Positions 39,275 through 57,363 of a stretch of DNA of 64,000 nt are shown here, in pieces; within the stretch, counting starts at the first letter, position 1, and every line of letters starts with the position of its first letter. The notes beneath the pieces were generated by a model that was not told the DNA's origin, made no database searches, and saw only the letters and a list, made by a program, of their open reading frames with translations. Origin of the DNA: Candidatus Eiseniibacteriota bacterium (GTDB lineage: Bacteria; Orphanbacterota; Orphanbacteria; Orphanbacterales; Orphanbacteraceae); assembly GCA_024276995.1 (NCBI GenBank), contig JAJRWB010000021.1, positions 1-64,000 on the forward strand. Reading direction: 5' to 3'. The position numbers were made by a program, and so were the translations under genes.

Positions 39275-40465
39275 ATGAAAAAAATCGCTATTCTGGAAAA
39301 CATTCTCTTCTTTTTTCTCCTCGCCTTCCTTCTCGCGTCGCCGGCTTCGGTGGCGTACTCGGAGATCGCTCTCGCCGCGGTGGTGGTGCTCCTGCTTCTT
39401 CGCGCCCTGATCCGCCGGGGGACTTTCGCCCCTCTTCGGGCGATTCCCCGCGCGAAGCGGATCTGCCGCCCCATGATCTTCTGGGCGGCCGCCTCCACGC
39501 TGGCCGCGATCTTCGCCCGCTACCGCATGGCGACGATTCTGAAGCTGCCGAAGCTCCTCATTCTCCTTCTCGTGTTTCTTCTCCCGGCGCTTCTCACGAA
39601 CTTCAGACGGCTTCGCCACGCCGTGGCCGCCCTCATTCTCGGCGGAGTGATCACTTCCGCCTACGGGATCGGTTATTACATGAACGATCCTTCCACGCGG
39701 CTCGGCGGCTTCGTGGGGAACTACATGAGCACCGCCGGGATCCTGATGATTCTCCTTCTCGTTTCCTTCGGCATTCTTTTTCGCGGAAGAGTGGGGGGCG
39801 CGCTCGAGTGGATCGTCATCGGGGCGATACCCGTGCTTCTCGTCGCGCTCTACCTCACGAACACGAGAGGCGCGTGGATCGGCTTCATCGCCGGTCTCGC
39901 GTTCATGGCGCTCGTCGCTTCCAGGCGGCTCCTTCTCGTTCCCGTCCTCTTCGTGGCGCTCCTCATGGCCGTTCCCGGAGGAGCGCGCAGCACGGCGCTC
40001 TCCGCCGTCGAACCGGGGAACTCGAGGAACCGGGAAAGGCTGTTCATGTGGAAAGCGGGACTCGAAATCTTTCGCGATCATCCCCTCGTCGGCGTCGGCC
40101 TGGCGGGAATGCGCGAAACATATCTCAATTATCGCGACCCGCGGGCGAAGGAGAAGGCGGTCCACCTGCACAGCGTTCCGATCCAGGTTCTTGCGAGCAG
40201 CGGAATCGTCGGCTTCGCCGCGTGGGCCTACCTGTTCGGCTCGCTCTTGTTATGGCTGCGCACGGCCGCGGTGCGCGTGCAAAAGGGCCCGCCGCTGGTG
40301 CGCGGCCTCGTGACGGGCGCTCTCGGCGCCTCGGCGGGCTTCCTCGTGAACGGCCTGGTGGAGTGGAACATCGGGGATGTCGAGGTGATCACCGTCTTCT
40401 GGTCGACCATCGGGTTGGCACTCGCCGCCGTGGCATGCCACGGCGGGAAGGGGGCGGCGAAGTGA
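39275..40465 (+). CDS. O-antigen ligase / polymerase-like membrane protein (Wzy_C)
   Basis: 396 residues with about ten membrane helices. The conserved Wzy_C loop reads LTNTRGAWIGFIAG, and the later periplasmic HLHSVPIQVLASSGIVGF carries the conserved His. Family knowledge: these GT-C-fold proteins transfer or polymerise lipid-linked oligosaccharides onto lipid A-core or proteins at the periplasmic face. The next gene overlaps by GTGA, so the two are translated together. Ligase and polymerase cannot be separated by sequence alone. Confidence 0.8.
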   Translation: MKKIAILENILFFFLLAFLLASPASVAYSEIALAAVVVLLLLRALIRRGTFAPLRAIPRAKRICRPMIFWAAASTLAAIFARYRMATILKLPKLLILLLVFLLPALLTNFRRLRHAVAALILGGVITSAYGIGYYMNDPSTRLGGFVGNYMSTAGILMILLLVSFGILFRGRVGGALEWIVIGAIPVLLVALYLTNTRGAWIGFIAGLAFMALVASRRLLLVPVLFVALLMAVPGGARSTALSAVEPGNSRNRERLFMWKAGLEIFRDHPLVGVGLAGMRETYLNYRDPRAKEKAVHLHSVPIQVLASSGIVGFAAWAYLFGSLLLWLRTAAVRVQKGPPLVRGLVTGALGASAGFLVNGLVEWNIGDVEVITVFWSTIGLALAAVACHGGKGAAK

Positions 40466-42183
40466 GCGAACCTCGTTCCGGCACGTCGACCACGGCGATT
40501 TCGGCGCTCATCGTTCTTGCGGTCCTCGTCTCCTACGTGCCCGCCATGAGGGCGGGGTATGTCTGGGATGACGATGCCTACGTCACCCGGAACGAGCAGC
40601 TCCGTTCTCCCGCCGGCCTCGCGAGGATCTGGTTCGTCCCCAGCGCCACGCCCCAGTACTACCCGGCGGTTCACACCTCGTTCTGGCTCGAGTACAGGCT
40701 GTGGGGACTCGCACCGGCCGGCTACCACGCGGTCAATATCGTGCTTCACGCGCTGTCGGCGGTTCTCCTCCTCAGGCTGCTCCTCTTTCTCCGCTTTCCC
40801 GCGGCGGTGCTCGGTGCGCTCCTCTTCGCCCTTCACCCGGTTCATGTCGAATCGGTCGCATGGATCACCGAGCGAAAGAACGTCCTCTCCGGCCTTTTCT
40901 ACCTCGCCGCCCTCTTCGTCGCGCTCCGCTGGTTCGACCCCGACGACACACGCCCGGGGGAAAAACGAAGGGCGCGGACCCTCGCGTGGGCGTATCTCCT
41001 CTTTCTTCTCGCGCTGCTGAGCAAGTCGGTGACCGCCACCCTCCCCGTGGTGATCGGTATCGTTCTCTACTGGAAGCGGGGCGCTCTCCGGCGGCGCGAT
41101 ATCATCGCGCTTCTCCCCTTTCTCGCCACGGGAGCGGCGTCGGGGCTCTTCACGGCGTATCTCGAAAAAACCCACGTCGGCGCCGCAGGGATGGCGTGGG
41201 CGTGGTCGATCCCTGAACGATTCCTCATCGCCGGCCGGGCGCTCTGGTTCTACGTGGGGAAGCTCGTATGGCCGTCGAACCTGATATTTGTTTATCCCCG
41301 ATGGAAGATCGACGGAGGAACGTGGTGGCAGTACGGGTTTCCTCTTTCCGCGGCCGCCGCCGTTCTTCTCCTCTGGAGACTTCGCGCGCGGATCGGCCGC
41401 GGACCGTTCGCGGCGGTACTCTGCTATGGCATCACCCTTTTTCCCGCTCTCGGATTTCTGGCGGTCTACCCGATGCGCTACTCCTTCGTGGCGGATCACT
41501 TCCAGTACCTTGCGAGCATCCCGATACTGATCCTCATCGCCTTCTCGCTGCGCGCGCTTTTCTTCCGGGCCGTCCGGGGCGCACCGGCGCGAGCCGCCGG
41601 GATCGGTTTCGTCGCCCTTCTTCTCGGCGTTCTCACGTGGAACCAGTGCGGCGCCTACAAGGATGAAGAAACACTCTGGCGCGCGACGATCGCGCGCAAT
41701 CCTCGCTCCTCGATGGCGCACAACAATCTCGGTGTGCTGCTTATGAGGGAAGGAAGGGTGGAGGAGGCGGGAGAGCATATTCTCAAGGCGATCCGCATCG
41801 ATCCGACGAATCACGAGGCGTTCGCCGCCAGGGGCAATCTTCTGGCCCGGCAGGGGATGGAGGACGAGGCGATCGAGTCGTACAGGCGCTCTCTCGAGAT
41901 CGATCCCCATTACGCCCTCGCCGCGTATAACTTGGGGAACATGTATAGGGAGCGGGGCGAAACGGAAAAGGCGATCGATCTCTACCGGCGGGCGATCGCC
42001 TCGCGGGAAGGTTACTTCGGCCCGTTGCTGAACCTCTCGCTTCTCCTGGGAAGTCTCGACCGGTGGGACGAGGCGGCGGAAGTGTGCGCCGAAGCGATCC
42101 GCTTCTTCCCCGGCGACGAGCGGCTCAGCGATCTGAGAATCGAGATCGAAAAACACCGGGAGGAGTCATCCCCCGCCGGCTGA
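40462..42183 (+). CDS. TMTC-like membrane glycosyltransferase with C-terminal TPRs
   Basis: 573 residues. The N-terminal 390 form a polytopic GT-C domain with the first-loop acidic motif VWDDDAYVTRNEQL and the hallmark HPVHVESVAWITERKNVL. The C-terminal 170 are four to five TPR units (for example AHNNLGVLLMREGRVEEAGE). The same architecture occurs in eukaryotic TMTC O-mannosyltransferases. Expected role: transfer of a sugar from a polyprenyl carrier to protein or glycan outside the membrane, with TPRs recognising the acceptor. The start is GTG overlapping the ligase-like gene's stop. Confidence 0.85.
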   Translation: MSEPRSGTSTTAISALIVLAVLVSYVPAMRAGYVWDDDAYVTRNEQLRSPAGLARIWFVPSATPQYYPAVHTSFWLEYRLWGLAPAGYHAVNIVLHALSAVLLLRLLLFLRFPAAVLGALLFALHPVHVESVAWITERKNVLSGLFYLAALFVALRWFDPDDTRPGEKRRARTLAWAYLLFLLALLSKSVTATLPVVIGIVLYWKRGALRRRDIIALLPFLATGAASGLFTAYLEKTHVGAAGMAWAWSIPERFLIAGRALWFYVGKLVWPSNLIFVYPRWKIDGGTWWQYGFPLSAAAAVLLLWRLRARIGRGPFAAVLCYGITLFPALGFLAVYPMRYSFVADHFQYLASIPILILIAFSLRALFFRAVRGAPARAAGIGFVALLLGVLTWNQCGAYKDEETLWRATIARNPRSSMAHNNLGVLLMREGRVEEAGEHILKAIRIDPTNHEAFAARGNLLARQGMEDEAIESYRRSLEIDPHYALAAYNLGNMYRERGETEKAIDLYRRAIASREGYFGPLLNLSLLLGSLDRWDEAAEVCAEAIRFFPGDERLSDLRIEIEKHREESSPAG

Positions 42184-42207
42184 AAAGGACGTCTCCCCTC
42201 CACGCGA

Positions 42208-43302
42208 TCAGTTGCAACTCCCGATACCGCGGTCTTTCCCGATGATCCGGGCGAGTTCGCGGGCCACCATGTCGTGGGCCTTTTCATTCGGATGCTGGTC
42301 GGTGGGATGCACCCAGAGCGACCTGTCTTCGGTGCCCCTGAAAAGGGGAAGGAGGTCGATGAACACGGCGTTATCGCCTCCCGCCTCTTCCACGACGCGG
42401 CCGATCTTCCGGTGGATCGATTCGAACGGATACGATTCGTCGAGGTGAAAGAGAATGGGGAAGCAAAGGACGTAGCAAGGTATTCTTCTCTCCACGCAGA
42501 TATCCAGAATCGCGACGAGCGATTTCTTCGCTTCAAGCCATCCCGCGCTCCCGTCCTCGTAGAGGCCGCGATAGTAATCGATCGTCTGCCCGGTGATCTT
42601 TCTCGTCCTCGCGATCTGCCAGATCAGCCGGGGGAGCCTGAAACGAAAGAGAAACGTATCGGGGGGAAGGGGATCGGGGAGCCCTTCGGAAACGCGGTTC
42701 TCCCTCTCTCTTCGCACCGGCTCGCCCGTCGTGTCGTCCACCGTGAAGAGCATCGGTTCCGCGTCGTTCAGCGTGAACCCAAGAACCACGATGTCCGGAT
42801 CCCAACCGAGTACTTCCTCCCGGAGGAGCTGGAGCGATTGCGTCGTGTTGTAACCGCCCACGCCGAAATTGTAGCTCTCGAACCGCACCGACTTTTCCGG
42901 CGAAACCGATTTGTTCAGGTATTGCGATGTTCGTTCGGCGAACGTGCGCCCGTCGCGCACTCCCTCGCCGAAAGTGAAGGAATCACCGAGAAAGGCGATG
43001 CGAACGGTGTTTGCGCCCTTCGTGTGAAGAAACTCCCGGCCCCGGAAACCGGCCGAGTTCGTCGTATGGGTGATCGCGTAGTCGATCCGATCGCCGTCGT
43101 AGACGAAGACGATCTCCTTCGACGGCGCGTTCCTGTAGCGGAACTCGCCCTTGTCGTTCTCGCGGAAGTCGAATTGACCCTCGCGGGAATGGGCGAGGTA
43201 GAACCGGGGGAGGTTCTTCTCCTTGAGAACGAACTCCACGGCACTCAGCCCCACGGCGAGGCTGAGCGCCAGGAGAAACAGTTTCAGCGCCGCGTCTTTC
43301 AT
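42208..43302 (-). CDS. Membrane-anchored SGNH/GDSL hydrolase-like protein, second paralog
   Basis: 364 residues with an N-terminal membrane segment. Block I reads IAFLGDSFTFGEGV, block III-like VLGFTLNDAEP, and the terminal Asp-His block HPTDQHPNEKAH. Domain order and the ending match the SGNH protein at 9.6-10.6 kb. It converges on the TMTC-like gene. Upstream lies a structured region with a small ORF and a terminator, so its expression may be controlled by attenuation. A role in glycan esterification or de-esterification is plausible but unproven. Confidence 0.78.
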   Translation of the reverse strand: MKDAALKLFLLALSLAVGLSAVEFVLKEKNLPRFYLAHSREGQFDFRENDKGEFRYRNAPSKEIVFVYDGDRIDYAITHTTNSAGFRGREFLHTKGANTVRIAFLGDSFTFGEGVRDGRTFAERTSQYLNKSVSPEKSVRFESYNFGVGGYNTTQSLQLLREEVLGWDPDIVVLGFTLNDAEPMLFTVDDTTGEPVRRERENRVSEGLPDPLPPDTFLFRFRLPRLIWQIARTRKITGQTIDYYRGLYEDGSAGWLEAKKSLVAILDICVERRIPCYVLCFPILFHLDESYPFESIHRKIGRVVEEAGGDNAVFIDLLPLFRGTEDRSLWVHPTDQHPNEKAHDMVARELARIIGKDRGIGSCN

Positions 43303-43463
43303 GCCGGGCTTTCCTCCGGGGCGATAGTAGGCGGCGAAGTGCCGGCGGGCAACCCTTTACGCGGTGCGCCCGGCGGTTCCGCCCGCTTCGAAAGGGACCT
43401 TCGTGGCCGTCACGTGTCGAGGAGGATCGCCGTGGTCGACCGAAGCCTCCGCCCCGGGCAATG

Positions 43464-43497
43464 GAAACGGCCCCGTCCTCGCGGACGGAGCCGTTTC
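43464..43497 (-). terminator. Strong hairpin with GNRA loop
   Basis: An 8-bp and a 6-bp helix separated by one mismatch form a 14-bp stem. On the minus strand the loop is GCGA, a GNRA tetraloop, and the stem ends GCCGTTTC. The T-run is only three bases. Because only minus-strand features lie on its upstream side, it most likely ends or attenuates transcription toward the SGNH gene. Confidence 0.6.
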
Positions 43498-43500
43498 AGA

Positions 43501-43894: not shown

Positions 43895-45667
43895 ATGATG
43901 CCGTTTTCGTTCCTCACGCTCCGGAGAGCGGCCTCGCTTTCGGCTCTCCTTTCCCTCGCGTTCGCCACCACCCTTTTCGCGGCCGCCTTTCCGATCTCCA
44001 TGGACGGCGCCTTCGACGACTGGACGGCGGTGCCTGTCGCCTTCACCGACGCTTCCGGCGACGGGGGGGGCTCGGGAATCGATTTCGGACGGCTCTGGGC
44101 CGCGAACGACGGGCGGGGCCTTTTCCTTCGAATCGAACTCGGCCCGTCGCTCGTGATGCAGGAATCGAACAGCCTGACCCTCTACATCGACACCGACAAC
44201 AATAGCTCCACGGGAACGGCGGTGGCCGGCATGGGCGCCGATCTCGTCTGGGAGTTCGGCAACCGGGGCGGAACGTACCAGGGCTCGTCGATCTTCTGGG
44301 ACGACATCGGTCTGGTCACCACGCCGCCCCATGCGGGGAGCGACTTCGAAATCTCCCTCCTCCGCGCCGCGACACCCGGGGGGAACACCCTCTTCCCGTC
44401 GAACACGATCCGCATCGCCCTTCGGGACAACTCGTCCGGCGGCGACTGGATTCCGAGCAGCTCCACGTCGGTGTCGTACACATTCGACGATTCGAATCCA
44501 TACGATCCGCCGGCGATCGCCCTCGATAAGGCGAACGCCGATTATCTCCGCGTGATGACACACAATGTGAAGAACGACGGCCTGTGGAGCCGGTCGGCGG
44601 AGCACGGGAGACTGGTGCAGGCGATCAACCCCGATATCATCGCCTACCAGGAGATTTACAACAACGATGGGCCGACCACTCTTTCGTGGGTTCAGTCGTA
44701 CCTTCCGGGCACGTGGTACCTTTCGTGGAGCGGAGAGCTGAAGATCATCTCCCGCTACCCGATTCTACAAGAGTGGTCCACCGGTGCCGGCAGGGCGTGG
44801 GCGGCGCTTATCGATCTGCCCACCGCGTTCACCCATGACCTGTTGCTGATCAATCTCCATCTGAAGTGCTGCTCCACGGGCGACTCGCAGCGACAGCAGC
44901 AGATCGATGACGTAATGTCGTTCATCCGTGACGCGGAGAGCGCGGGTGGATCGATCACTCTTCCCGCCTACACGCCGATCATGATCGTGGGCGACACGAA
45001 CATGTACGGCGACGCGCAGCAGGTGACCACCCTTCTCACGGGCGACATCCTGGACAACGGCACCTACGGTCCCGACTTCAACCCGGACTGGGATGGAACC
45101 GCCCTCGACGCTCTCGTGTCGAGACAGCTTTCCGTCAGGCAGACCTATTCCTATTACAACCCGGCCAGCTCGTACGGTCCGTCGCACATCGACAGGATCA
45201 CCGTCACCGGAAGTGCGGTCACCGTGGACAAGAGCTTCATGCTTCACACGCAGAATCTCGATCCAGCGGTGCTCGCCGCGGCCGGCCTGAACGCCGGCGA
45301 TTCCCAGGCGGCTTCGGATCACGCGCCCCACGTCGTCGACCTGCAGAGCGATAACACGAGCACCGGCGTGGCCGCGCCGGCGCCGGGCGCACTCCGCTTC
45401 GCACTCGTGAACCGGCCGAATCCGTTCAACCCGCAGACATCGATCTCCTTCGCCCTGTCGTCGGCGGGAGAGGTTCGCCTCGCCGTGTTCGACGTCCAGG
45501 GCAGGAAGGTGACGACCCTCGTGGACGGCCGTCGTTCCGCCGGTGAATACTCGACCGCGTGGGACGGCACCGACGACATGGGAGCGGCGGTGGCGTCGGG
45601 CGTCTACTTCGCCCGTCTCGAGAAGGACGGGGACTCCTCGATCCGCCGAATGATCCTGATTCGCTAA
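43895..45667 (+). CDS. Secreted endonuclease/exonuclease/phosphatase-family protein with FlgD-like tail
   Basis: 590 residues. Signal peptide, then an N-terminal beta domain (FPISMDGAFDDWTAVPV ... ALRDNSSGGDWIPSS, a CBM9-like or family-unknown domain). The EEP catalytic domain follows, with VMTHNVKNDG, AYQEIYN, LLINLHLKCC, IVGDTNMYGD, SHIDRI and SDHAPH, i.e. the Asn, Glu, Asp/Asn and Asp/His residues of a Mg-dependent phosphodiesterase. The C terminus is FlgD-like (NRPNPFNPQTSISFAL ... MILIR). Likely an extracellular nuclease or phosphodiesterase. AGGAG stands 9 bases before the ATG; the ATG at 43886 would overlap that site. Confidence 0.85.
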   Translation: MMPFSFLTLRRAASLSALLSLAFATTLFAAAFPISMDGAFDDWTAVPVAFTDASGDGGGSGIDFGRLWAANDGRGLFLRIELGPSLVMQESNSLTLYIDTDNNSSTGTAVAGMGADLVWEFGNRGGTYQGSSIFWDDIGLVTTPPHAGSDFEISLLRAATPGGNTLFPSNTIRIALRDNSSGGDWIPSSSTSVSYTFDDSNPYDPPAIALDKANADYLRVMTHNVKNDGLWSRSAEHGRLVQAINPDIIAYQEIYNNDGPTTLSWVQSYLPGTWYLSWSGELKIISRYPILQEWSTGAGRAWAALIDLPTAFTHDLLLINLHLKCCSTGDSQRQQQIDDVMSFIRDAESAGGSITLPAYTPIMIVGDTNMYGDAQQVTTLLTGDILDNGTYGPDFNPDWDGTALDALVSRQLSVRQTYSYYNPASSYGPSHIDRITVTGSAVTVDKSFMLHTQNLDPAVLAAAGLNAGDSQAASDHAPHVVDLQSDNTSTGVAAPAPGALRFALVNRPNPFNPQTSISFALSSAGEVRLAVFDVQGRKVTTLVDGRRSAGEYSTAWDGTDDMGAAVASGVYFARLEKDGDSSIRRMILIR

Positions 45668-45859: not shown

Positions 45860-47245
45860 ATGGACCAGGAACGGTTTATTCAAAAATGTATCGGTCGTGC
45901 AGTTATTCCCCTCGCCGGCATGGCACTCCTTGCGACGGCGCTCGCGTTCTCTTGCTCGAAGCGGATTTCATCCCTCCCGCTCGATGCGGAGAATACGAAT
46001 GTTTTCTGGCTTACCGTATGCACCCTCCGCGCGGACCATCTCGGCGCGGCGGGCTACGAGGCGGATACCTCTCCTTTCATCGACAGTCTCGCCGCCGGGG
46101 GGGTGTTTTTCGATCGCGTGCTCACCGCGGCGCCGTGGACGAGGGCGTCGATCGCGTCGATGATCACCGGCGTTTACCCGCGCACCCTCGACATCGAAAG
46201 TCGCACCGCGGGCGATCCCGAGAAGATCCTCGCCGATCGCTTCGATACCGCCGCCGAGCTCTTTCGATCCGCGGGCTACGCCACCATCGGGCTGACGGCG
46301 AATCCGAACACGAACAGGGTTTTCAATTTTCAGCAGGGATTCGATCAGTACCAGGATACGAAGAAACTCTGGCGAAACGGCTACGCCGCGGAGAAAGCGG
46401 ACGGAAAGAAGATTCTCGATGCCCTTCTCGATCAGCTGGGCGGGCCGCTCCGGGGAAAGAGGTTCTTCGCCCACGCCGTGATCGTCGATGTTCATCTTCC
46501 TTATCTCGCTGAGAAGGCGCGCGAGAAGACGGGCGCCTTCGAACCGGGAACCGCCACGGCCGAGTACGATCGCCAGATCCGTTATGTCGACGCCGTCCTC
46601 TCCGATTTCATGAAAGGCCTCGACAGCCTCGGGCTGGACAATACCCTCGTGGTGGTGAATTCCGACCACGGCGAGGCCTTTCGCAAAGTGCGGCCGTACG
46701 ACGTTCGCCACGGAAAGTATCTCTTCAATTCGACGATCTGGACACCTCTTCTCCTCTCCCACCCCGCGCTGGAGAAGTGTGCCATGACCCATCATGAAGT
46801 GATCGCCTCGGTCGATATTCTTCCCACGCTGCTCGATCTTCTCGGCATACCGTTCGACACCGATGTGGTGCAGGGGAAGTCGCGGAAGGGCGCGATCCTC
46901 GCCGCGAGAAGTGCGGGAAGCGACCGGGATCCCCACTACGTGGAGACATCCCACCAGAAGGTGAACCGGAGCGCCCTTCTCACCGGCGGGTGGAAGGTGA
47001 TCGCCGATTACGGTTTCGAAAACAGACCCGATCCGAAGAGTGTCGAACTCTATCGCTTCGCCGAGGATCCGCTCGAGCAGAACGACCGTGCGCGGATCGA
47101 TTCGACGACGGCCGCCGATCTTCTCGGGCGTCTCCAGGAGTGGCGTGAATCGCGCGATGCCGAAGCGGCCGCGTCACCGGAGCGTGCCGCCATCAGCGAG
47201 GAGGAACGGCGGGCCTTGGATGCGCTCGGCTATATCGATCGCTGA
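45860..47245 (+). CDS. Sulfatase-fold lipoprotein, paralog 4, altered metal site
   Basis: 461 residues. Lipobox LAFSC with Cys32. The nucleophile position reads T94-R-A-S-I after PW. Unlike its paralogs, the first metal motif is LTVCTLRADHLG: Cys54 replaces the Asp that normally binds metal, while NSDHGEAF is kept. It therefore may be inactive, bind a different metal, or act as a binding protein. The C terminus is LDALGYID. GGAGGAACG precedes the ATG. Its 3' end overlaps the convergent YfhO-like gene by 16 bases. Confidence 0.78.
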   Translation: MDQERFIQKCIGRAVIPLAGMALLATALAFSCSKRISSLPLDAENTNVFWLTVCTLRADHLGAAGYEADTSPFIDSLAAGGVFFDRVLTAAPWTRASIASMITGVYPRTLDIESRTAGDPEKILADRFDTAAELFRSAGYATIGLTANPNTNRVFNFQQGFDQYQDTKKLWRNGYAAEKADGKKILDALLDQLGGPLRGKRFFAHAVIVDVHLPYLAEKAREKTGAFEPGTATAEYDRQIRYVDAVLSDFMKGLDSLGLDNTLVVVNSDHGEAFRKVRPYDVRHGKYLFNSTIWTPLLLSHPALEKCAMTHHEVIASVDILPTLLDLLGIPFDTDVVQGKSRKGAILAARSAGSDRDPHYVETSHQKVNRSALLTGGWKVIADYGFENRPDPKSVELYRFAEDPLEQNDRARIDSTTAADLLGRLQEWRESRDAEAAASPERAAISEEERRALDALGYIDR

Positions 47246-49704
47246 CGCCGCCGTCGTGGAAAGAGAAGGATCGCGGCGATCAGAAGGCCTCCGATGCTCG
47301 CCGCTGCGCCCCGGCGGAACGCCGGCGGCGCGTATTCGAGACGCACCTCGTGCTTCCCGGGGGGAAGAGGGACGCCCCGCACGATGCCGCACACCGCAAC
47401 GATCGGCGCCTCGTCGCCGTCGATCGTTGCCCTCCAGCCGGGGCTGTACGTGTCGGCCACCACGAGAAGCTGTTCCGTCGGCGCATCGGTGCGCACGGTC
47501 AGCTCGTTCCATCCGTCATGCTCCACGACGGCGCTTCCCGGCGCGGCCGCGCTGTCGCCGATCTCTCCCTCACCGACATAGACCGCGCTCTTTCCCGGCT
47601 CGAAGTCTCCCCGCCGGAGGATTTCCGCCGCATCCTTTGCGGACACACCTCTGGCGTACGGTACGAGGCGTATCCGCGGGACGAAACTCTTCCGTCTCCA
47701 GCGGAAGAATCCCTCCTTCGACGAGCCGATCCACCCCGCCCTGCGGAATGTTCGCCTCATATCGGGCATGACGTAGAGAAGTTCCGCGCCGCTGACGATG
47801 TCCTTCACCGAAAGGAGATCGAGAATCGGGTGGGTCAGCGCGCCGATCGAATCGGGCGCCACGATCCTTTTTCCCGACCAGTTGCCGTGGGAGAAGAGAT
47901 CCTCGCCGGAGCAGATCTCGAGCGCTTCCCCGATGGTGCTTTCGCACAACGCGTTGTATCCCTGTACGTCGCGCAGATGAAAAAGGGTGTTCGTCGACGG
48001 AGGAAGCACACCGGAGAGCTTGTAACTCCCGCCCCACTCTTTCCGAAAACGGAGAAACCGGCCGCCGCCGCTTTCCCCCTCGTCTAGATGGGCGCGCAGC
48101 TCACCGATGGCGGGCGTCTCCTCGAACACGGCGTCGGGATCTCTCGAAGCGCGGTAAGGAAAGTCGAAGACCATGAGCTGAACCGCCGCCACGGCGCACG
48201 GGAGGAACGCCGCGATCCGCCCGGCGGGGAGGAGGAAGGCGATCGCTCCCCCGATGCCGAAAAACGATGCGATCCAAGCCCGCAGCTCCGCCGGTTCATA
48301 GAGATACGGCGCCATCGTGTTCGGTGGATAAGGACCGTAGTGCGATCCGAGTCTCGCCGAAAGGTGCGGTCCGTTCAGCTGAATCCAGAGTGCTCCGGCG
48401 AGGAGGAGGAGAATCGCCGCGGCACCGAAGAGCTTCCTGCCGCCCCGGCGGTTGGACGCGAGATCGGCGGCGCCCAAGCCGGCGAGCATGGTCTGGGCGA
48501 AAATGAGAAAGAACCCCGCCCTGTCGATCCGGGAGAAGCGAAATCCGGGGAAGACCTCATAGGCCAGACGGGCGAGGGGGGTTCCGAACACGATGCCGGC
48601 GAAGAAGAGGAAGATCAACGTGAAGGGAAGCGCTTTTCTGCGCGTGCCGGGAGAGGCGGCGCCCCACACGGCGAGAAGGAAGATCGGTGTGCCTGCGAAG
48701 AGCGCCGCCATGGTGGTGCGCAGGAAGTGATGGTTCCCGAGGGGGAATTTCCCCCCCCACGAATCGGCGCTGACGATCGATCCGAAGAAATCGGGCACCA
48801 CGAGACGGATCATCTCGACGGGATGGAAACCGCCCGAGAGGATCGCCGAGTAGGAGAGGGTCGAGCGCGCCGAGGCTCCGGCGAGATTCACCGTGGGGAG
48901 GAGCTGCGCGCCGGCGAGAAGGAGAGCGATCACGCCCCCTCCGGCAAGGGCGGAAATCGTCTTCCCGTGCCGCTTCCAATCGAATGGCGCCGCGTCCCGT
49001 CCGGTGAGCCGGACGGCGAGAAAAAGGAGCGCCCCGTAGGCGGCTTGCACCACCGTCTGCGGCTGGCCGGAGAGGAACATGAGCGCGCATGTCACGCCGA
49101 GCAGCGCCGCCCGGCGCCGGTCCGGCTTTTCGAGGACGTGCTCCATGGCGAGGAAGAGCCACGGCACCCATGACGCGGTGGCGAGAAACGTCGGGAGGCC
49201 GATGTTCTTGACGAAGTATTCGTTCAGCGAAAACACCGCTCCCGCCGCCCATGCGAGGGAGGGGGGCGCCCTCAGCTTCAGAAGGAGAAGAAAGACGCCC
49301 GCGGCGCCCCACGCCATGTGGAACAGGAGATAGGGCGGGAACTGGTCGATCGGTTTCAGCGGGAGGAGGAACCAGTTCACCGGGTAGAAGACGCCGACCT
49401 GGAGATCCGCGAGCAGCGGCGAGCCGCAAAAGGAGTACGGATTCCAAAGGGGCCATTCCTTGCGCGCCCACGCCTCGGAGAGGATGAAGCGGCGCGGGTA
49501 ATAGGAGAGGCAGAAATCGGGGTTCAGGTTCGGATAACGGGGCGTGGAGATTCTCTGCGACTGCGACCAGGGACGCCACGCATGCTTATCGGCCGTCCAC
49601 ACGATTCGCTTCGTGAAGAGCGGTCCGGCGAGGAGAATCCCGGCGGGGATCAGCAGCGCGAGCAGCGCGAGAGAAAGGCGAAGCCTGGAACCGGGTCGCG
49701 TCAT
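47230..49704 (-). CDS. YfhO-family polytopic membrane protein
   Basis: 824 residues with 12-14 helices and a C-terminal soluble region (PGWRATIDGDEAPIVAVCG, then VPLPPGKHEVRLEYAPPAFR and a last helix). This is the layout of the YfhO family (bacterial membrane protein of GT-C type, implicated in glycosylating lipoteichoic acid in Bacillus). The N-terminal loop SYYPRRFILSEAWARKEWPLWNP is family-typical. GGAAGG precedes the chosen ATG; the frame is open almost 100 codons further upstream but there is Arg/Ser-rich, non-homologous and overlaps the divergent gene. Probable role: sugar addition to a surface glycan or lipid. Confidence 0.8.
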   Translation of the reverse strand: MTRPGSRLRLSLALLALLIPAGILLAGPLFTKRIVWTADKHAWRPWSQSQRISTPRYPNLNPDFCLSYYPRRFILSEAWARKEWPLWNPYSFCGSPLLADLQVGVFYPVNWFLLPLKPIDQFPPYLLFHMAWGAAGVFLLLLKLRAPPSLAWAAGAVFSLNEYFVKNIGLPTFLATASWVPWLFLAMEHVLEKPDRRRAALLGVTCALMFLSGQPQTVVQAAYGALLFLAVRLTGRDAAPFDWKRHGKTISALAGGGVIALLLAGAQLLPTVNLAGASARSTLSYSAILSGGFHPVEMIRLVVPDFFGSIVSADSWGGKFPLGNHHFLRTTMAALFAGTPIFLLAVWGAASPGTRRKALPFTLIFLFFAGIVFGTPLARLAYEVFPGFRFSRIDRAGFFLIFAQTMLAGLGAADLASNRRGGRKLFGAAAILLLLAGALWIQLNGPHLSARLGSHYGPYPPNTMAPYLYEPAELRAWIASFFGIGGAIAFLLPAGRIAAFLPCAVAAVQLMVFDFPYRASRDPDAVFEETPAIGELRAHLDEGESGGGRFLRFRKEWGGSYKLSGVLPPSTNTLFHLRDVQGYNALCESTIGEALEICSGEDLFSHGNWSGKRIVAPDSIGALTHPILDLLSVKDIVSGAELLYVMPDMRRTFRRAGWIGSSKEGFFRWRRKSFVPRIRLVPYARGVSAKDAAEILRRGDFEPGKSAVYVGEGEIGDSAAAPGSAVVEHDGWNELTVRTDAPTEQLLVVADTYSPGWRATIDGDEAPIVAVCGIVRGVPLPPGKHEVRLEYAPPAFRRGAAASIGGLLIAAILLFPRRRRQRSI

Positions 49705-49859: not shown

Positions 49860-51008
49860 ATGGCGAATCGTTCGATCCGGTCCTCGTCGCGCCGGCGGAA
49901 CGCTCTTCCCGGCGCCGTTCTCTCCGTCCTCCTTCCCGCCGGCGTCTTCGCCGCGTCGCTTTTCGCCTTCTCATCGATCCTCTCCCGCTCATTCCCACCC
50001 GGAAACCCGACGATCTTCGACAGGAAGATCGCCCAATTCTCGGCGTCAGACGGGGAGAGATACAACACGGTTTTCGTTGGATCGAGCCGCGTGTACCGGC
50101 ACCTCATCCCCGTTCTTTTTGACGAGGCGCCGGCTCTTTCGGGCCTCGGGATCCGCTCGTATAACTTCGGTTACTACGGAAGCCGGGCGCTCGAGCTTCC
50201 TCACCTCATGAGACGGGTGCTCGCGGCGGACCGCGAAGGAAAATTGAAGTGGGTTTTCATCGATGTCGAGCCGATGGCCTGGGATCTGGAGGATGTGAAT
50301 CTCGCCACCGCTCGCGTGGCGTCGTATCACGACGCAACCACTCTTGCCCGGGCGGTCCGGTACGCCGTGGGCCGCGATTCCCTCGCCCTGTCGGTGAGAA
50401 TCGCCGCGGCGGCGCGACACCTGGTCCCTTTCTTTCGCCATATTCTCTCGTGGTCCGAAGGGAGCACGTGGCTCAAGAACGCGATCCGGCCTTCCGGGGA
50501 GTGGCGTCGCCGCTCGGAAGAGTTGTGGAGAGCCCACCGGAGGGGCTACCTCTCTCTCGAATCGTCGCTCGAGCTGGCCGACGAGGAAGAACGCGGCCGG
50601 CTCGAGGAGAGGAAGGCGCTCTTCGAGAAAAAAAGGGGGAAATTCCTTCGGAACGTGAGGAGATTGCGATCCGAACCTCCCGGCGAGGCCGATCTCGATC
50701 GGGTGATGGTCGATGTGCTGGCGAAGCTCGACCGGATGGTACGGGATCACGGCGCCACGGCGATCTTCATTTCCAACCCGATCTTGAGGCCGCGCAACGA
50801 TCTCAAGATCGCCCACGAAACCGACGTGATCGAGAACTTCTTCCCCTTCGATGATCCCGACTCGTGCGCGGTCCTTTTCGATCCCGACTACAGGTTCGAC
50901 GAGGGCCATCTGAGCAGCGAAGGCGCGGCGATATACACCTCGCTCCTCGCCGACCGCTTCGGACGGTGGTTTCATGAGAAGGAAACGAAGAAAGAGGCGG
51001 CGCATTGA
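49860..51008 (+). CDS. AlgJ/SGNH-like partner of the MBOAT protein
   Basis: 382 residues: N-terminal membrane anchor (about 18-42), then an SGNH-like domain. The block FVGSSRVYRHLIP stands for block I, and YRFDEGHLSSEGAAIYTS carries the terminal Asp-x-x-His. A charged helical insertion (LADEEERGRLEERKALFEKK) lies between. It overlaps the MBOAT gene by 4 bases (TTGA). In alginate and peptidoglycan acetylation systems an MBOAT protein exports the acyl group and an SGNH-type partner transfers it to the polymer; the same division of labour is inferred here. Confidence 0.75.
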   Translation: MANRSIRSSSRRRNALPGAVLSVLLPAGVFAASLFAFSSILSRSFPPGNPTIFDRKIAQFSASDGERYNTVFVGSSRVYRHLIPVLFDEAPALSGLGIRSYNFGYYGSRALELPHLMRRVLAADREGKLKWVFIDVEPMAWDLEDVNLATARVASYHDATTLARAVRYAVGRDSLALSVRIAAAARHLVPFFRHILSWSEGSTWLKNAIRPSGEWRRRSEELWRAHRRGYLSLESSLELADEEERGRLEERKALFEKKRGKFLRNVRRLRSEPPGEADLDRVMVDVLAKLDRMVRDHGATAIFISNPILRPRNDLKIAHETDVIENFFPFDDPDSCAVLFDPDYRFDEGHLSSEGAAIYTSLLADRFGRWFHEKETKKEAAH

Positions 51009-52417
51009 TTTTCACCGAGTTCCGGTTTCTGCTCTTCTTCGCCGTCGTGTTCGCGGTCCACTGGACACTAAAGGAGAACCGCGCCCGGAAGATATGGCTT
51101 CTCCTTTGCAGCTACTACTTCTACGCGGCATGGGATTGGCGGTTCCTTTCGCTCATCTTCGCGTCCACCGTGGTCGATCACTTCGCCGGATCGGGGATCG
51201 ACCGGTGCGATCGGGCCGACGAGAAGAGAAGAAAAAGGTGGCTCCTTCTCAGCGTACTCTGCAATCTCGGCCTCCTAGGCGTATTCAAGTATTTCAACTT
51301 CTTCGTCGATTCCGGCTCGGCCTTTCTCAACACCCTCGGCATCGGCGCCACGGTGCCGGCGCTTCGCATCATTCTCCCGGTGGGGATCAGTTTCTACACG
51401 TTCCAGACGATGAGCTACACCATCGACATCTACAGGGGTCGGCTCCGCCCGGCGAAGAGCTTCCTCGACCTCGGCTTGTTCGTAGGCTTCTTCCCGCAGC
51501 TCGTGGCGGGACCGATCGTGCGGGCGCGCGACTTCATCCCCCAGCTCGATCGCCTTCGCCGCCCCGCCGACATCCCTTTTCGCGCCTGCGCCCTCCTTTT
51601 CCTTTCCGGTTTTCTGAAGAAGGCGTGCATCTCGGACAACATCTCCGTCGTGGTAGACCCGTATTTCGCCCATCCCCAGGCGTACGACGCGTTGAGCGCG
51701 TGGATCGGCGTGCTCCTCTACTCGGTGCAGATCTACTGCGATTTTTCGGGCTATTCCGACATGGCGATCGCCACGGCGGGCTTTCTCGGTTACCGGCTTT
51801 GCGATAACTTCGCCCATCCCTACTTTTCCGGGAGTATCCAGGAGTTCTGGCGGCGGTGGCATATCAGCCTCTCCACGTGGCTTCGCGACTACCCTTATAT
51901 CCCCCTCGGCGGGGGGCGGGGATCGAAGCTCTTCCGCTACAGGAACCTGATGCTCACCATGCTTCTCGGCGGACTCTGGCACGGGGCGGCGTGGAGATTC
52001 GTCATCTGGGGGGGACTCCACGGCTTGGCGCTCGTGGTTCACAGGGAGTGGCGAACGATGCTCGAAAGGCGTGGGATCGGCTGGTCGATCCCGCCGGCGG
52101 CGGGTGTGGCGCTCACCTTCTACTGGGTGGGGTTGACATGGATCTTCTTTCGAGCCACCGACTGGCGCAGCGCATTCGTCATCGCCCGGTCGTATCTCTT
52201 CCTCCACAGTCCGGGAGTGAAAAGTCTAGACCTTGACGGGCTCTATCTCTTCCTTCTGCTGGTGGCGGCGCACTGGATCGCTTACCGGAGGTGGACGGTA
52301 CCGTTCCGCCGGTCGGCGCCGGATGTGCTCTTCGCCGCGGTGCTCGGCGTGATCGTCTCGTTCATCTCTTTCTTCATGGCTTCCGACGTGGCGCCGTTCA
52401 TCTATTTCCAGTTCTAG
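51005..52417 (+). CDS. MBOAT-family membrane O-acyltransferase (AlgI-like)
   Basis: 470 residues, about eleven helices. Start MIFTEFRFLLFFAVVF is typical of the family; the initiator is TTG. Conserved blocks are DFSGYSDMAIATAGFLGYRL, FWRRWHISLSTWLRDYPYIP (His286) and LGGLWHGAAW (His326, the catalytic histidine). Family knowledge: it accepts an acyl group from the cytoplasm and passes it across the membrane for O-acylation of a polysaccharide. It is coupled to the preceding SGNH-like gene. Which polymer is modified is unknown. Confidence 0.9.
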   Translation: MIFTEFRFLLFFAVVFAVHWTLKENRARKIWLLLCSYYFYAAWDWRFLSLIFASTVVDHFAGSGIDRCDRADEKRRKRWLLLSVLCNLGLLGVFKYFNFFVDSGSAFLNTLGIGATVPALRIILPVGISFYTFQTMSYTIDIYRGRLRPAKSFLDLGLFVGFFPQLVAGPIVRARDFIPQLDRLRRPADIPFRACALLFLSGFLKKACISDNISVVVDPYFAHPQAYDALSAWIGVLLYSVQIYCDFSGYSDMAIATAGFLGYRLCDNFAHPYFSGSIQEFWRRWHISLSTWLRDYPYIPLGGGRGSKLFRYRNLMLTMLLGGLWHGAAWRFVIWGGLHGLALVVHREWRTMLERRGIGWSIPPAAGVALTFYWVGLTWIFFRATDWRSAFVIARSYLFLHSPGVKSLDLDGLYLFLLLVAAHWIAYRRWTVPFRRSAPDVLFAAVLGVIVSFISFFMASDVAPFIYFQF

Positions 52418-52502: not shown

Positions 52503-54020
52503 ATGAAAAACCGCCTGGCGCTCCTCTCGGTGTGGGGGGCGGCCCTTTGTCTCTTCGCCGTCATCGCGTCGGGAATATGGATGTTCATCGAAAGAAACGG
52601 CGCCGCTCTTTGTTTCCCCTGGCCTCTCGACTACGGCGAAGGGCCGCTCCTCGACCAGGCGGCGCGGCTGTCGCGTTTCGAGAATATCTACGACCCCCGC
52701 ATCGACGAACCGCCCTACACCATTTCGAATTATCCGCCTGTCTTCGCCGCTCTCCAAGCGCCGTTCGTCCGCCTCTTCGGTCCGTCTCTCCTGTTCGGTC
52801 GTGCTATCGGGATCGTCGCGCTTATCGTGGCGGCGTCGGCGATGGCGCTCATCGTCAAGAAACTCACCGGGGATATTCTCGGTGCGGTGGTGGCGGCGTC
52901 TTTCCTTTTCCTCTTCCCGTGCGTTTTTCACTGGGCCGCGCTCGGCAGGGTCGATCTCGCCGCCCTCGGATTCGCCTGTGCCGGCCTCGCCGCCGTGGTG
53001 CTCGGTGAACGCCGGAAGGCCGGCCTGGTCGGCGGCGCCCTCCTCCTTTCCGCCGCGGTTTTCACCCGGCAGTCGTACGGCCTCGCCGCCCCTTTCGCCG
53101 CGTTCGTCTTTCTCCTCCGCGAACCGCCCCGGCGGCGGGCGTTCACTCTCGCCGCGTGGACGTTCGGCATCTGCCTCGCCGCCTTCGCCGCTCTCGATAT
53201 CGCGACGCGCCACGGTTTCTTCCTTCACGTGGTCACCGCCAACATCAACACATTCCGCTGGAGCCGCACGGAAGCGTATTTCACGGAATTCGCGCAAGGT
53301 TCACGCCTTCTCCTCGTCGCGGCGGCGCTTTTTCTCGTAGCGGGACTTCCTCTCGGCCGAAGGCGCGATTCCGCCGCGTGGTGGGTCAGCGCTCCTTTCC
53401 TCGCCGCGGCGACCGTGTCGGCGCTCACGTCGGGAAAATCCGGTTCGAACATAAACTATTTTATCGAGCCGGCCGCCGCTCTCGCTCTCGCCGCCGGGGT
53501 GTGGGTCGCCTGGTCGAATCGGATACCGTATCTTCGTGTGATCGTCCTTCTTCTCATGGCGGGTCAGGCGGCGGCGCTCGAAGGGGTTTCCCGCCGCCTT
53601 CACTACGACAGGGTCTTCCGGTCGATCCGCGCCGGAGATCGGATCGCCGAACTCTATTCGATCGTGAAGGAGGCGGACCGCCCGGTGCTTGCCGACCGGT
53701 TCATGGGGCTCGTTCCTCTCTCCGGGAAGAGGCTCTTCTTCCAGCCGTTCGAGATGAAGCAGCTCGCCGATGCCGGGCTGTGGAATCCGCGCCCTTTTCT
53801 CGATGCCATCGAGAGGAAGGAGTTCGGCGCGATTCTCATCTACGAGGCGAGGGATTACGATTCCCGCCGTCAGCGATGGTTGCCGGGCATCACGAGTTAC
53901 ATCAATCGTTTCTACGAACCGTCGAAGCGGCTTTTCGACACGGTGGTGTACCTGCCGCGGAAGGGAGCGAACGGCGGGGGTGGAGACCGGTCTTCGCCCG
54001 GTGAAAGGGAGAAGAGGTGA
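52503..54020 (+). CDS. Polytopic GT-C-type glycosyltransferase-like protein
   Basis: 505 residues, about ten helices. The first periplasmic loop has PWPLDYGEGPLLDQAARLS, with the acidic pair expected of a GT-C/GT39-like transferase, and TISNYPPVFAALQAPF. The final 100 residues are soluble. The ATG is preceded by GAGGGAACC, 85 bases after the MBOAT gene. The next gene overlaps by GTGA. Probable use of a polyprenyl-phosphate sugar donor; acceptor unknown. Confidence 0.72.
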   Translation: MKNRLALLSVWGAALCLFAVIASGIWMFIERNGAALCFPWPLDYGEGPLLDQAARLSRFENIYDPRIDEPPYTISNYPPVFAALQAPFVRLFGPSLLFGRAIGIVALIVAASAMALIVKKLTGDILGAVVAASFLFLFPCVFHWAALGRVDLAALGFACAGLAAVVLGERRKAGLVGGALLLSAAVFTRQSYGLAAPFAAFVFLLREPPRRRAFTLAAWTFGICLAAFAALDIATRHGFFLHVVTANINTFRWSRTEAYFTEFAQGSRLLLVAAALFLVAGLPLGRRRDSAAWWVSAPFLAAATVSALTSGKSGSNINYFIEPAAALALAAGVWVAWSNRIPYLRVIVLLLMAGQAAALEGVSRRLHYDRVFRSIRAGDRIAELYSIVKEADRPVLADRFMGLVPLSGKRLFFQPFEMKQLADAGLWNPRPFLDAIERKEFGAILIYEARDYDSRRQRWLPGITSYINRFYEPSKRLFDTVVYLPRKGANGGGGDRSSPGEREKR

Positions 54021-55990
54021 TCGGCGGTCCGGCGCATTCCTCTTCGCGGTCGGCGGACCTCCTCGCCGTGACGGTGATCGTCTTATCGGGCGCGCTCGTC
54101 GCGCTGCCGGTGCTCGGCGGCGGGTGGATGACGTATCTCGACAACCCGTCCCATCTCGCCGAAATCGACGCTGCGGCGTTCGAGGCGCACAACGGATGGT
54201 CGGACACGGCGTTTTGCGGCTTTCCCGTGGGAACGCTCCACTCTCCCCTCTGGTACGGCACTCTCGCCCGCCTCGTCCGCGCCGGTTTTCCTGCGGAACC
54301 GCTTCTGGCGGCGTGCATTCTGCTCGGTTTTCTCGCCCCGCCGCTCGCGCTCTTCCGGGTGGCCCGCCGCACCCTCCCCGCCGTCGCGGCGGCGGCCCTC
54401 GCGTTCCTTCTTCTTGTTCAAAGAACCGCGCTCGTCGGGATCGGCTCGGCGACGGGGGGGATGTGGACTTTCTATCTCGCCGCCGGGGGGGTGATCCTCT
54501 TCGCCGACCGCCTGACGAGGCCGTGCCGCTCCCGCCGCGATGCTTCTCTCCTCGGGGTTCTCACGGCGCTGATCTTGCTGACCCATCTCTTCGCCCTCGT
54601 GCCGATCGCCATTCTCGCGGCGATCCACGCCGGGCGATTTCTTCTTGGAAGAAGACCCGTCGCGGATCTCGTCCGCCAGGCGGCCGGAATGATCGCCGGT
54701 GTCGCGGCGGCTGCGACGTATTGGCTTCCCCTCTTCCTCGCCGGCGAGGAGGCGGCGAGAGAAGCGCAGCACCTTGCGGCACCGATGGTGGCGGCGCGTC
54801 TCCTTCTTCCGACCCATCTCTTTTCGCTCCTCGAAAACCACTTCCCCCCGATTGACGGCACGCTCCTCGTCGGGGCGCTGCCGATGACGGGGCTCGTTCT
54901 TCTCGGCGCGGCGGCCGCCGTCATGGTGTTCCGGCGCACCGCAGAGGACACTCCCTTCTACGGCGCATATCTCGCCGGGTCGATCCTCGTTCTTCTTTTC
55001 GCCGCGCCGACATTCCACTTCGTCTTCCTCGGCCCGGTCAGCTGGAGACTGATCTACTTCGTCCGCGTGGCGCTCGCCCTCGCGTCGATTCCGCTCCTCG
55101 TCCGCGCGGTGAACCGCTTCCCTCTCCCGGCGAATCGACGGACGTCGATCCTCATCGCCGCATCGCTCGGCGTGGCGGCGCCGGCGCTCGCCTTCGCCTG
55201 CGGCGCGCCGCTGCGCGCCGCCGTCCCTGAAAGGAAGAGCGCGCCGGTCGAGGAGGTGAAGAGCCTCTGGAAGTGGCTCGCCGAACACCGCCGGGAGGAA
55301 TGGGGGCGCGTCTACATTCAGGATACATTCACCTACCCGACCGCGCTGACGCCGCTGCGGGAGTCGCACATCCTTTCCCTTACCGCGCGCAACAGCGGTG
55401 TCCGCCAGCTCGGCCCGGTCTACGGCATCGCGCCGTATCGAACGGCGGAGTGGACGCCGAGCGAGTTCGGGAAACTTTACAGAAGAATAATCGGAGGGGA
55501 AAAGGGGGATGAAACATTGAGGCGGCTGATGTGGCTCTCCGGCGCCACGCACATCGTGCTGAGCGACGGTGCGACGCGAAGCCGGCTCGCCGGCTCGCCT
55601 CTCTTCGAGAGTCTCCACTCGACGGGACGCTACGAAGTGCTTCATCTCAGGAACGCACGGCCCTCGTGGGTGACCGCCGCGGCGGGAGAGGGAGATCTCA
55701 CCGTCGGGAGGTACGAGACGGGTCGCCTTTCGGTCGACCTGGGGGGGATGTACGGGGGGGAAGATCTTCTCGTCCGGGTTTCGTATCATCCGGGATGGAC
55801 GATTCGAGGATCGCGAACGGCGTCGCTTGTTTCCGACTCCTCCGGCCTTCTCCGGATCACCGGTCTCGCGCCGGGGAAGGGAGCGATCGAACTGGAGTTC
55901 ATCCCATCGCGCACGCCGCGAACCGTCGCCGTTTTCGGCTGGGTCGCTCTGGCGGCGCTCTTTCTGATGCCCGGGAGGATTCGCCCATGA
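54017..55990 (+). CDS. Large polytopic membrane protein, probable glycosyltransferase
   Basis: 657 residues. About twelve helices with an early periplasmic loop containing YLDNPSHLAEIDAAAFEAHN, then a C-terminal soluble domain (about 400-620) ending with a beta-sandwich-like piece (VSYHPGWTIRGSR, recalling the PGWRATIDG end of the YfhO-like protein) and a last helix. It resembles the YfhO/6-pyruvoyl-type membrane glycosyltransferases. It overlaps both its upstream neighbour (GTGA) and the downstream sulfatase-fold gene (ATGA), so these three genes are one translational unit. Confidence 0.72.
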   Translation: MIGGPAHSSSRSADLLAVTVIVLSGALVALPVLGGGWMTYLDNPSHLAEIDAAAFEAHNGWSDTAFCGFPVGTLHSPLWYGTLARLVRAGFPAEPLLAACILLGFLAPPLALFRVARRTLPAVAAAALAFLLLVQRTALVGIGSATGGMWTFYLAAGGVILFADRLTRPCRSRRDASLLGVLTALILLTHLFALVPIAILAAIHAGRFLLGRRPVADLVRQAAGMIAGVAAAATYWLPLFLAGEEAAREAQHLAAPMVAARLLLPTHLFSLLENHFPPIDGTLLVGALPMTGLVLLGAAAAVMVFRRTAEDTPFYGAYLAGSILVLLFAAPTFHFVFLGPVSWRLIYFVRVALALASIPLLVRAVNRFPLPANRRTSILIAASLGVAAPALAFACGAPLRAAVPERKSAPVEEVKSLWKWLAEHRREEWGRVYIQDTFTYPTALTPLRESHILSLTARNSGVRQLGPVYGIAPYRTAEWTPSEFGKLYRRIIGGEKGDETLRRLMWLSGATHIVLSDGATRSRLAGSPLFESLHSTGRYEVLHLRNARPSWVTAAAGEGDLTVGRYETGRLSVDLGGMYGGEDLLVRVSYHPGWTIRGSRTASLVSDSSGLLRITGLAPGKGAIELEFIPSRTPRTVAVFGWVALAALFLMPGRIRP

Positions 55991-57363
55991 GAGGAACGTT
56001 TCATCGGCGGCTCCTGCCGGCGGTCGCCACGCTAGGCCTCGTCATGCTGGGGGGCTGCGCGCCGCACCGGGCGAGGCCGAACGTGGTGATCATCGTGGTG
56101 GACACCCTTCGCGCCGACGGCCTCGGCTGTTATGGCGCCGTCGGCGACCCGACGCCGGCGATCGACCGGCTCGCCGCGAAGGGGATCCGCTTCGAACGAT
56201 GCGTCTCCCAGGCGCCGTGGACCCTTCCCTCGGTGGCGACTCTCCTGAGCGGCCGGTATCCCACGTCCCACGGCGCCGACAACTTCACGAGCGTACTGCC
56301 GAAGAAGCTCCGTCTCATGGCGCAGGACTTCCGTGCCGCCGGCTACGCCACCGGCGCGGTGGTTAGCCATCGTTTCGTAAGCATCCAGAAAGGTTTCGAC
56401 AGGGGCTTCGACTCCTTCGACCAGTCTAATACTCTCGGTCATGATGCCGTGACTTCACCGGGCGTAACAAAGAAGGCGTTGCAATGGCTCGGGAAGATCG
56501 AGAAGGAAAGGAAGACACCGTTCTTTCTCTTCCTCCACTATTTCGATCCCCACTACAGTTATATGAGCCATGAAGGAAACCCGCCCGGTCCGCCGTATGA
56601 CGGTCCTTTGAAGGCGGGAATGGACATCTGGGAACTGAGAAAGAAGCTCGAGTCCGCTTCCACGGAGGATCTCGACTTCGTGAAGAATCTCTATGCCGGA
56701 GAGATCCGCTTCACCGACGGCGAGATCGGAAAGGTGTTTGACTATCTCGAGGAACGGCAGATCGCCCGGAACACGGTGATCGTGTTCACCGCCGATCACG
56801 GCGAAGAATTCATGGAGCACGGCTGGCTCGGTCACACGAAGAATCTGTACGACAACCTCGTCCTCGTGCCGCTCATCATCCGGTATCCCGGAGGAGACGA
56901 AGGGAGTGTCCGGCGCGATCCGGCGATGCTCGTCGATCTTTTTGCCACCATCGAGAATCTCGCCGGTCTCGAAGCGCACCCGACGGAGGGTCGGGATCTC
57001 TTCGGCGACGACCGCTCCGACAGGCCGTGCGTTTCGGAGGTGGAGTTCGATCCGAGCGGGGCGAAATACCTCGGGAGGAAATTTCTCCGGCGGGAGATGG
57101 AGAAGCGTTCCGACATGCGCTCGATCTACCGTGCCGGCTGGAAGGCGATCGAGAACCGGATCACCGGGGAATGGGAGCTTTTCGACATCACGAACGATCC
57201 GGGGGAGATCGAGAACGTGGCGGGCAGGGAAACGGATCGTCTCGAGGACCTTCGCGGCGACCTGGCGAAATGGGAACGGTCGATCGTTAAGGGAACGGGG
57301 GAGGCCGAACCGCTCGATTCGGCGCAGATCGAAGAGCTTCGCGCTCTCGGATATATCCGGTAG
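55987..57363 (+). CDS. Sulfatase-fold lipoprotein (Thr type), paralog 5
   Basis: 458 residues. Lipobox MLGGC with Cys24; metal motifs VVDTLRADGLGCYG (Asp39) and ADHGEEFMEHG; nucleophile position T79-L-P-S-V after PW; C terminus LRALGYIR. Its start overlaps the stop of the preceding polytopic protein, tying it functionally to glycan assembly and making it the clearest case in the window for action on a surface glycan. Metal and nucleophile residues otherwise look complete. Confidence 0.82.
   Translation: MRGTFHRRLLPAVATLGLVMLGGCAPHRARPNVVIIVVDTLRADGLGCYGAVGDPTPAIDRLAAKGIRFERCVSQAPWTLPSVATLLSGRYPTSHGADNFTSVLPKKLRLMAQDFRAAGYATGAVVSHRFVSIQKGFDRGFDSFDQSNTLGHDAVTSPGVTKKALQWLGKIEKERKTPFFLFLHYFDPHYSYMSHEGNPPGPPYDGPLKAGMDIWELRKKLESASTEDLDFVKNLYAGEIRFTDGEIGKVFDYLEERQIARNTVIVFTADHGEEFMEHGWLGHTKNLYDNLVLVPLIIRYPGGDEGSVRRDPAMLVDLFATIENLAGLEAHPTEGRDLFGDDRSDRPCVSEVEFDPSGAKYLGRKFLRREMEKRSDMRSIYRAGWKAIENRITGEWELFDITNDPGEIENVAGRETDRLEDLRGDLAKWERSIVKGTGEAEPLDSAQIEELRALGYIR

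Follow-up and report, generated by a model that had tools for sequence, protein, structure and literature searches.

The sequence analysed here (the window) comprises positions 1 to 64,000 of contig JAJRWB010000021.1 of a Candidatus Eiseniibacteriota bacterium, and our subject is an 18-kb interval within it (39275-57363), which the initial annotation had described as one late-stage periplasmic module for decorating a surface glycan. Gene calls were made with a local gene finder of our own making, and their starts may differ from those of a standard annotation. The interval holds 11 genes, ten of envelope-glycan type. The genes listed in the initial annotation were all confirmed by Pfam matches, motifs or topology, and these ten are as it described them; an eleventh, nuclease-like gene (43895-45667) had been overlooked. 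The strand order of the genes is + + - + + - + + + + +, and the four switches rule out a single operon and imply several transcription units. For comparison, the window genome (G000) was set beside six others of the phylum (G001-G006), seven species of one family in all, and the 18-kb set is not syntenic in any of the six relatives. Because of the four strand changes and the lack of any arrangement kept in the relatives, the claim of a single 18-kb system was given up. The interval is probably a gene-dense patch of independent units (an acyl-transfer pair; a GT-C/sulfatase trio) drawn from families expanded in the phylum, rather than one machine.

The interval begins with a gene for an O-antigen-ligase-like membrane protein (39275-40465, plus strand; Wzy_C, PF04932, E 4.5e-23), followed by one for a TMTC-like GT-C glycosyltransferase with C-terminal TPRs (40462-42183, plus), for which only TPR families scored and whose acidic WDDDAY loop was read from the translation. 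A GDSL/SGNH hydrolase gene (42208-43302, minus; PF13472, E 5.8e-14) is convergent to the latter. Next come the overlooked gene (plus), a non-glycan gene whose secreted product has an FlgD_ig/T9SS-type tail and a weak endonuclease/exonuclease/phosphatase match in NCBIfam, and the gene of a Thr-type sulfatase-fold protein (45860-47245, plus; PF00884, E 1.2e-37). The latter is overlapped convergently by 16 bp by the gene of a YfhO-like GT-C protein (47230-49704, minus), matched in its C-terminal part (PF09586, E 1.2e-13). The last plus-strand run encodes an SGNH (AlgJ/PatB-like) acyltransferase partner (49860-51008), an MBOAT acyltransferase (51005-52417; PF03062, E 7.9e-31), a PMT_2-like GT-C protein, GTC52 (52503-54020), with a PMT_2 score of 25.2 bits, just below the cut-off of 26.1, a GT-C-like polytopic protein, GTC54 (54017-55990), assigned by topology with no Pfam match, and a Thr-type sulfatase-fold lipoprotein (55987-57363; PF00884, E 3.8e-45).

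Overlaps of 4 bp join ligase and TMTC, SGNH partner and MBOAT, GTC52 and GTC54, and GTC54 and the lipoprotein gene. They show translational coupling inside small units, and the coupling claimed earlier for the MBOAT gene with its AlgJ-like partner and for a sulfatase with a GT-C gene is among them. MBOAT and GTC52 are 85 bp apart; this gap, which holds one promoter-like site, may break the final run into two. A scan for promoters and terminators, with 6 promoter-like sites where 2.5 were expected and 26 terminator-like sites where 18.1 were, was too weak to delimit units. Searches of the window with Rfam and for tRNA genes came up empty. No nucleotide-sugar, Wzx or Wza family was matched by Pfam among the 11 genes, as had been stated, and neither was GT2 or a GtrA-type flippase.

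Ligase, TMTC, YfhO, the MBOAT pair and the sulfatases occur together in none of the six other phylum genomes. All seven genomes have ligase, TMTC, YfhO and sulfatase homologues, but on separate contigs or far apart. The ligase has best matches of 46-57% identity in all six relatives and adjoins TMTC in none. Its neighbour is a nucleoside-recognition (Gate) protein by Pfam in G003, a protein of like length and near-identical start in G002 and G006, a sulfatase in G004, and an FlgD_ig-type protein in G001 and G005. Meanwhile, TMTC homologues, found throughout (the best match in G006 is weaker, E 5.6e-23), adjoin an SGNH gene in two relatives, G002 and G003. The TMTC neighbour in G004 is an unassigned 360-aa protein, itself followed by an MBOAT (L041). 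Co-occurrence, which had been proposed for the interval genes, holds for smaller units elsewhere (the SGNH-MBOAT pair, a sulfatase-GT2-YfhO set in 7/7 genomes, and a second operon described below), but not for the interval set. The idea of one module that acylates, glycosylates and phospho-modifies a pre-made polymer could appeal to the ten of eleven genes of envelope-glycan type, to the coupling of several of them, and to similarly composed modules elsewhere in the phylum, including the closeness of TMTC and MBOAT in G004. It is nevertheless improbable, given the strand switches, the unrelated nuclease-like gene inside, and the separation of the genes in 6/6 relatives, where GTC54 has no homologue and GTC52 a single weak match (27% over 174 residues, G004:C11), unlinked and with no homologue of the other cluster proteins alongside.

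The SGNH-MBOAT pair (49860-52417) is the sole unit of the interval that recurs intact in relatives. The two genes are coupled or directly adjacent in three of them, G001 (two tandem pairs), G004 (two places) and G005, with no other interval gene alongside. No MBOAT was found in G003 and G006; the MBOAT gene of G002 (G002:C13:19959-21060, L022/L040) contains an internal stop and is probably decaying. The MBOAT protein of the interval ends in FIYFQF, and an FXYXXF ending is present in 19 of the 20 MBOAT sequences examined, a set in which the protein of the interval is counted and one place is represented by two copies. The conserved His lies in WHG at residue 325 and is kept in 20/20. The SGNH partner carries VGSSRVY at residue 73 and DEGHL at residue 347, corresponding to a Ser block and DxxH. 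FXYXXF has been described as the acyl-shuttle motif of PatA and DltX (PMC12148441). Adjacent coupled MBOAT and SGNH genes, the WHG His, the C-terminal FXYXXF and the GSS/DxxH motifs are shared with PatA/PatB, AlgI/AlgJ and DltB/DltD. In contrast to those systems, the SGNH protein of the interval falls below Pfam and NCBIfam thresholds, and the NCBIfam model nearest to its MBOAT, DltB, scores far under the cut-off (147 against 375 bits). Because of the acyl-shuttle and catalytic motifs, we assign the pair, on its sequence, to the PatA/PatB-AlgI/AlgJ kind as a new member. By analogy with PatA/PatB and Dlt, MBOAT would take an acyl group from acyl-CoA and hold it on the Tyr of FIYFQF; the SGNH partner would then accept it on its Ser (GSS, DEGH) and esterify an envelope glycan.

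The two sulfatase-fold genes of the interval belong to a large family. The window genome has 44 PF00884 matches, 42 of them over the cut-off, and among these 42 aligned genes the formylglycine position holds Thr in 40, Ser in one and Cys in one. The metal-site residues are mostly kept (Asp39 in 38, Asp270 in 40, His271 in 38). The six other genomes have 24 to 58 matches each (matches, not genes), and the Thr-type sulfatases are a genome-wide expansion. Four further Thr-type sulfatase-fold genes lie in the window (5317-8105, 10641-12074, 59176-60531), two of them as a coupled pair. The window thus has six in 64 kb, where the genome-wide density (42 in 3.76 Mb) would predict about 0.7. Both interval proteins had been described as Thr-type lipoproteins. 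Thr is indeed present in both at the formylglycine position (CxPxR), but the lipobox of the 45860 protein is poor. In addition, Cys replaces its first metal-site Asp (position 39), suggesting that this protein is possibly an inactive pseudo-enzyme.

No residue other than Cys or Ser is known to be converted to formylglycine; the Thr-type proteins are therefore unlikely to be sulfatases. Their fold, PF00884 match and metal-site Asp and His residues are those of S1 sulfatases and phosphonate monoester hydrolases, and they differ from S1 sulfatases in having Thr, not Cys or Ser, in 40/42 genes. In a profile search the nearest solved structures were choline sulfatase, carrageenan sulfatase and GlcNAc-6-sulfatase, and the first 22 also included phosphonate monoester hydrolases. 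A fold search had a family S1_16 sulfatase at the top, followed by phosphonate monoester hydrolases; the model submitted, built from six window sequences, was of moderate quality (pLDDT 65.8, pTM 0.67) and served for the broad fold only. A Thr nucleophile is shared with phosphotransferases of the LtaS/EptA type. However, the LTA synthase model gives 36.5 bits for the 45860 protein and 22.1 bits for the 55987 protein against a cut-off of 970, and, as against the N-terminal membrane domain of that type, two and zero transmembrane segments, respectively, are predicted. Phospho-modification by the Thr-type proteins, as proposed in the initial annotation, is conjectural: in sequence and fold they come closest, among solved structures, to S1 sulfatases and phosphonate monoester hydrolases, not to LtaS/EptA-type transferases. 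In view of the smaller conserved units, its idea of GT-C enzymes and Thr-type sulfatase-fold proteins at work beyond the membrane is a sound guess at function. For the acceptor, proteins are as likely as the pre-made polymer it had assumed.

The second unit of the interval (52503-57363) consists of GTC52, GTC54 and the Thr-type lipoprotein. GTC54 resembles YfhO at its C-terminus; a single-sequence structural model of it (pLDDT 44, pTM 0.29) was discarded. Outside the phylum, weak GTC54 matches were found in 4/385 other genomes, and the regions of three were inspected: in two, no sulfatase homologue stands beside the GTC54-like gene, and in the third, on the short contig L109, none of the called genes matched. 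Within the window genome, the closest paralogue of the lipoprotein (51% identity, G000:C39) is flanked by two same-strand polytopic genes, one of them GT87. Generally, coupled GT-C-like neighbours (polytopic, at least 400 aa) are over-represented at sulfatases (8/29 partners against 42/508, Fisher p = 0.003), in a modest test that covers a sampled fifth of the genome in regions picked around sulfatases, the window included; 7/42 sulfatase genes have a coupled polytopic neighbour. The trio is probably a lineage-specific case. In the mechanism that we propose, GT2 enzymes encoded elsewhere would load a polyprenyl-phosphate carrier with sugar, the two coupled GT-C transferases would transfer this sugar to an acceptor beyond the membrane, and the lipoprotein would make or cut a phosphoester on the acceptor or the spent carrier. 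The unit would then be a local case of a partnership of GT2, GT-C and alkaline-phosphatase (AP)-superfamily proteins that is kept in two operons of all seven genomes.

The first of these, operon A, has the order sulfatase (Thr)-GT2-YfhO in 7/7 genomes, beside a conserved core block, with a TMEM260-like GT-C gene (PF11028) upstream in 6/7. In the window genome, TMEM260-like, sulfatase, GT2 and YfhO genes span L060 3406-9691 (G000:C48), with homologous loci L061-L065 and L100. Its GT2 is unusually conserved, at 83-87% identity to the window genome's copy; the other genes have about 45-59%, the sulfatase 53-59%. Operon B (L066 5581-12681, G000:C4; homologous loci L184-L189) has the order GT2-YfhO-YfhO-phosphodiesterase fold in 7/7 genomes. 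PMT_2 and LPG_synthase_TM homologues follow downstream in 6/7 (the contig of G005 ends before them, and the window genome's copy lies at a contig end), and a further downstream gene is PMT plus TPR in G001 by Pfam. The gene directly before operon B is presumably glyS-like, since its start reads like glycyl-tRNA synthetase beta.

Outside the phylum, 20 regions drawn from the best-scoring YfhO matches were inspected. Within three genes of YfhO, an AP-superfamily gene is present in 6/20, GT2 in 6/20 and both in 3/20 (G277, G123, G140), and AP/sulfatase genes make up 11/117 near genes against 1/122 far genes. For example, G140 has a row of phosphodiesterase fold, GT2, YfhO, PMT_2, LPG_synthase_TM, YfhO and PMT plus TPR. 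A region of G072, outside the 20, also has AP and GT2 genes beside YfhO. Meanwhile, a YfhO scan of the genome-wide collection gave four loci, all in the phylum's genomes. No description of such a partnership of YfhO and GT2 with an AP-superfamily protein was found in the open-licence PubMed Central literature.

These observations point, tentatively, to a wider possibility: that in this phylum and some others, transmembrane glycosylation by GT2 and GT-C enzymes of the YfhO, PMT and TMTC kinds works with dedicated Thr-nucleophile AP-superfamily enzymes, which would attach phosphoesters to the glycan concerned or its lipid carrier, or trim them there. The family may have radiated, to some 40 copies in each genome, and teamed up again and again with new GT-C enzymes; the GTC52-GTC54-sulfatase trio would be one instance. 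Several points weigh against our reading of the interval as a whole. Operons A and B adjoin generally conserved core genes, and their conservation may partly be plain synteny. The interval itself encodes no acceptor, flippase or GT2. The Thr proteins are nearer in sequence to sulfatases and phosphonate hydrolases than to known transferases, and the suggested GT-C nature of GTC54 comes from topology and a weak C-terminal match. Moreover, 35/42 sulfatase genes stand without a coupled polytopic partner, and one partner of the other seven is an MFS transporter, not a GT-C protein.

Those 35 genes, among about 40 dispersed copies, would also suit a role of the Thr-type proteins in nutrient scavenging, as secreted phosphodiesterases or phosphatases with no link to the GT-C genes that they adjoin. 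Their closest solved relatives by sequence and fold agree with this, and a GH53 (endo-galactanase family) gene directly past the cluster and convergent with it (57380-58570, minus) hints at glycan use. We consider scavenging unlikely: the sulfatase-GT2-YfhO coupling is kept in every genome despite the low identity of the sulfatase, and AP-superfamily genes lie near YfhO in other phyla too.

The operons also bear on a general protein O-glycosylation, in which PMT-, TMEM260- and TMTC-like enzymes would glycosylate exported proteins and the Wzy_C protein would be an oligosaccharyltransferase. The genome has many secreted proteins with FlgD_ig/T9SS tails, and TMEM260-like (PF11028), PMT_2 and TPR-bearing GT-C genes occur both in the two operons and next to other sulfatases. 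In humans, POMT, TMTC and TMEM260 are the three protein O-mannosylation families (PMC11292533). The ligase, in addition, has a weak TfpM match (14.9 bits against a cut-off of 600). However, the characterised YfhO-type GT-C enzymes of Firmicutes act on teichoic acids (PMC8035078), and the acyl-transfer pair requires an acceptor that bears hydroxyls, as is more typical of polysaccharide. Protein O-glycosylation is a possible explanation that we hold with reserve.

With the interval read as a patch of independent units, a vague 18-kb 'system' is replaced by two small testable ones, and operons A and B, rather than the interval, are the place to test the partnership of GT-C and Thr-type AP-superfamily proteins. 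They raise the question of the role of a non-sulfatase sulfatase-fold enzyme beside polyprenyl-phosphate-sugar glycosyltransferases. Automatic annotation is likely to label the Thr-type family, with its roughly 40 members, as 'sulfatase', and claims of sulfate metabolism for such uncultured genomes could be wrong.

Elsewhere in the window, a potassium-channel-like protein has TrkA_N and TrkA_C fused to a response-regulator receiver domain (32434-33813), and another protein carries cytochrome c-type haem motifs with HEAT and TPR repeats (27255-29573).

Compared with known systems, the interval differs from an O-antigen locus of the Wzx/Wzy type in having no Wzx flippase or nucleotide-sugar genes by Pfam. 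Its TMTC-like protein shares with the O-mannosyltransferases TMTC1-4 a GT-C-like membrane part, a DD loop after the first transmembrane segment (WDDDAY) and a TPR tail; in contrast to these, it is bacterial. Prokaryotic TMTC homologues have already been noted (PMC7801869). The combination of YfhO and GT2 is a known multi-component transmembrane glycosylation scheme (PMC8035078). The interval resembles the CsbB/GtcA/YfhO systems in its YfhO- and PMT_2-type GT-C proteins, and GT2-YfhO pairs lie elsewhere in the genome, whereas the GT2 and GtrA flippase of those systems are missing from the interval. The conserved operons differ in adding an AP-superfamily protein and, in operon B, an LPG_synthase_TM protein. 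The AP-superfamily partner looks like a variation on the known GT2/GT-C scheme, and the partnership of GT-C with Thr-type AP-superfamily enzymes is plausible as a new variant of it.

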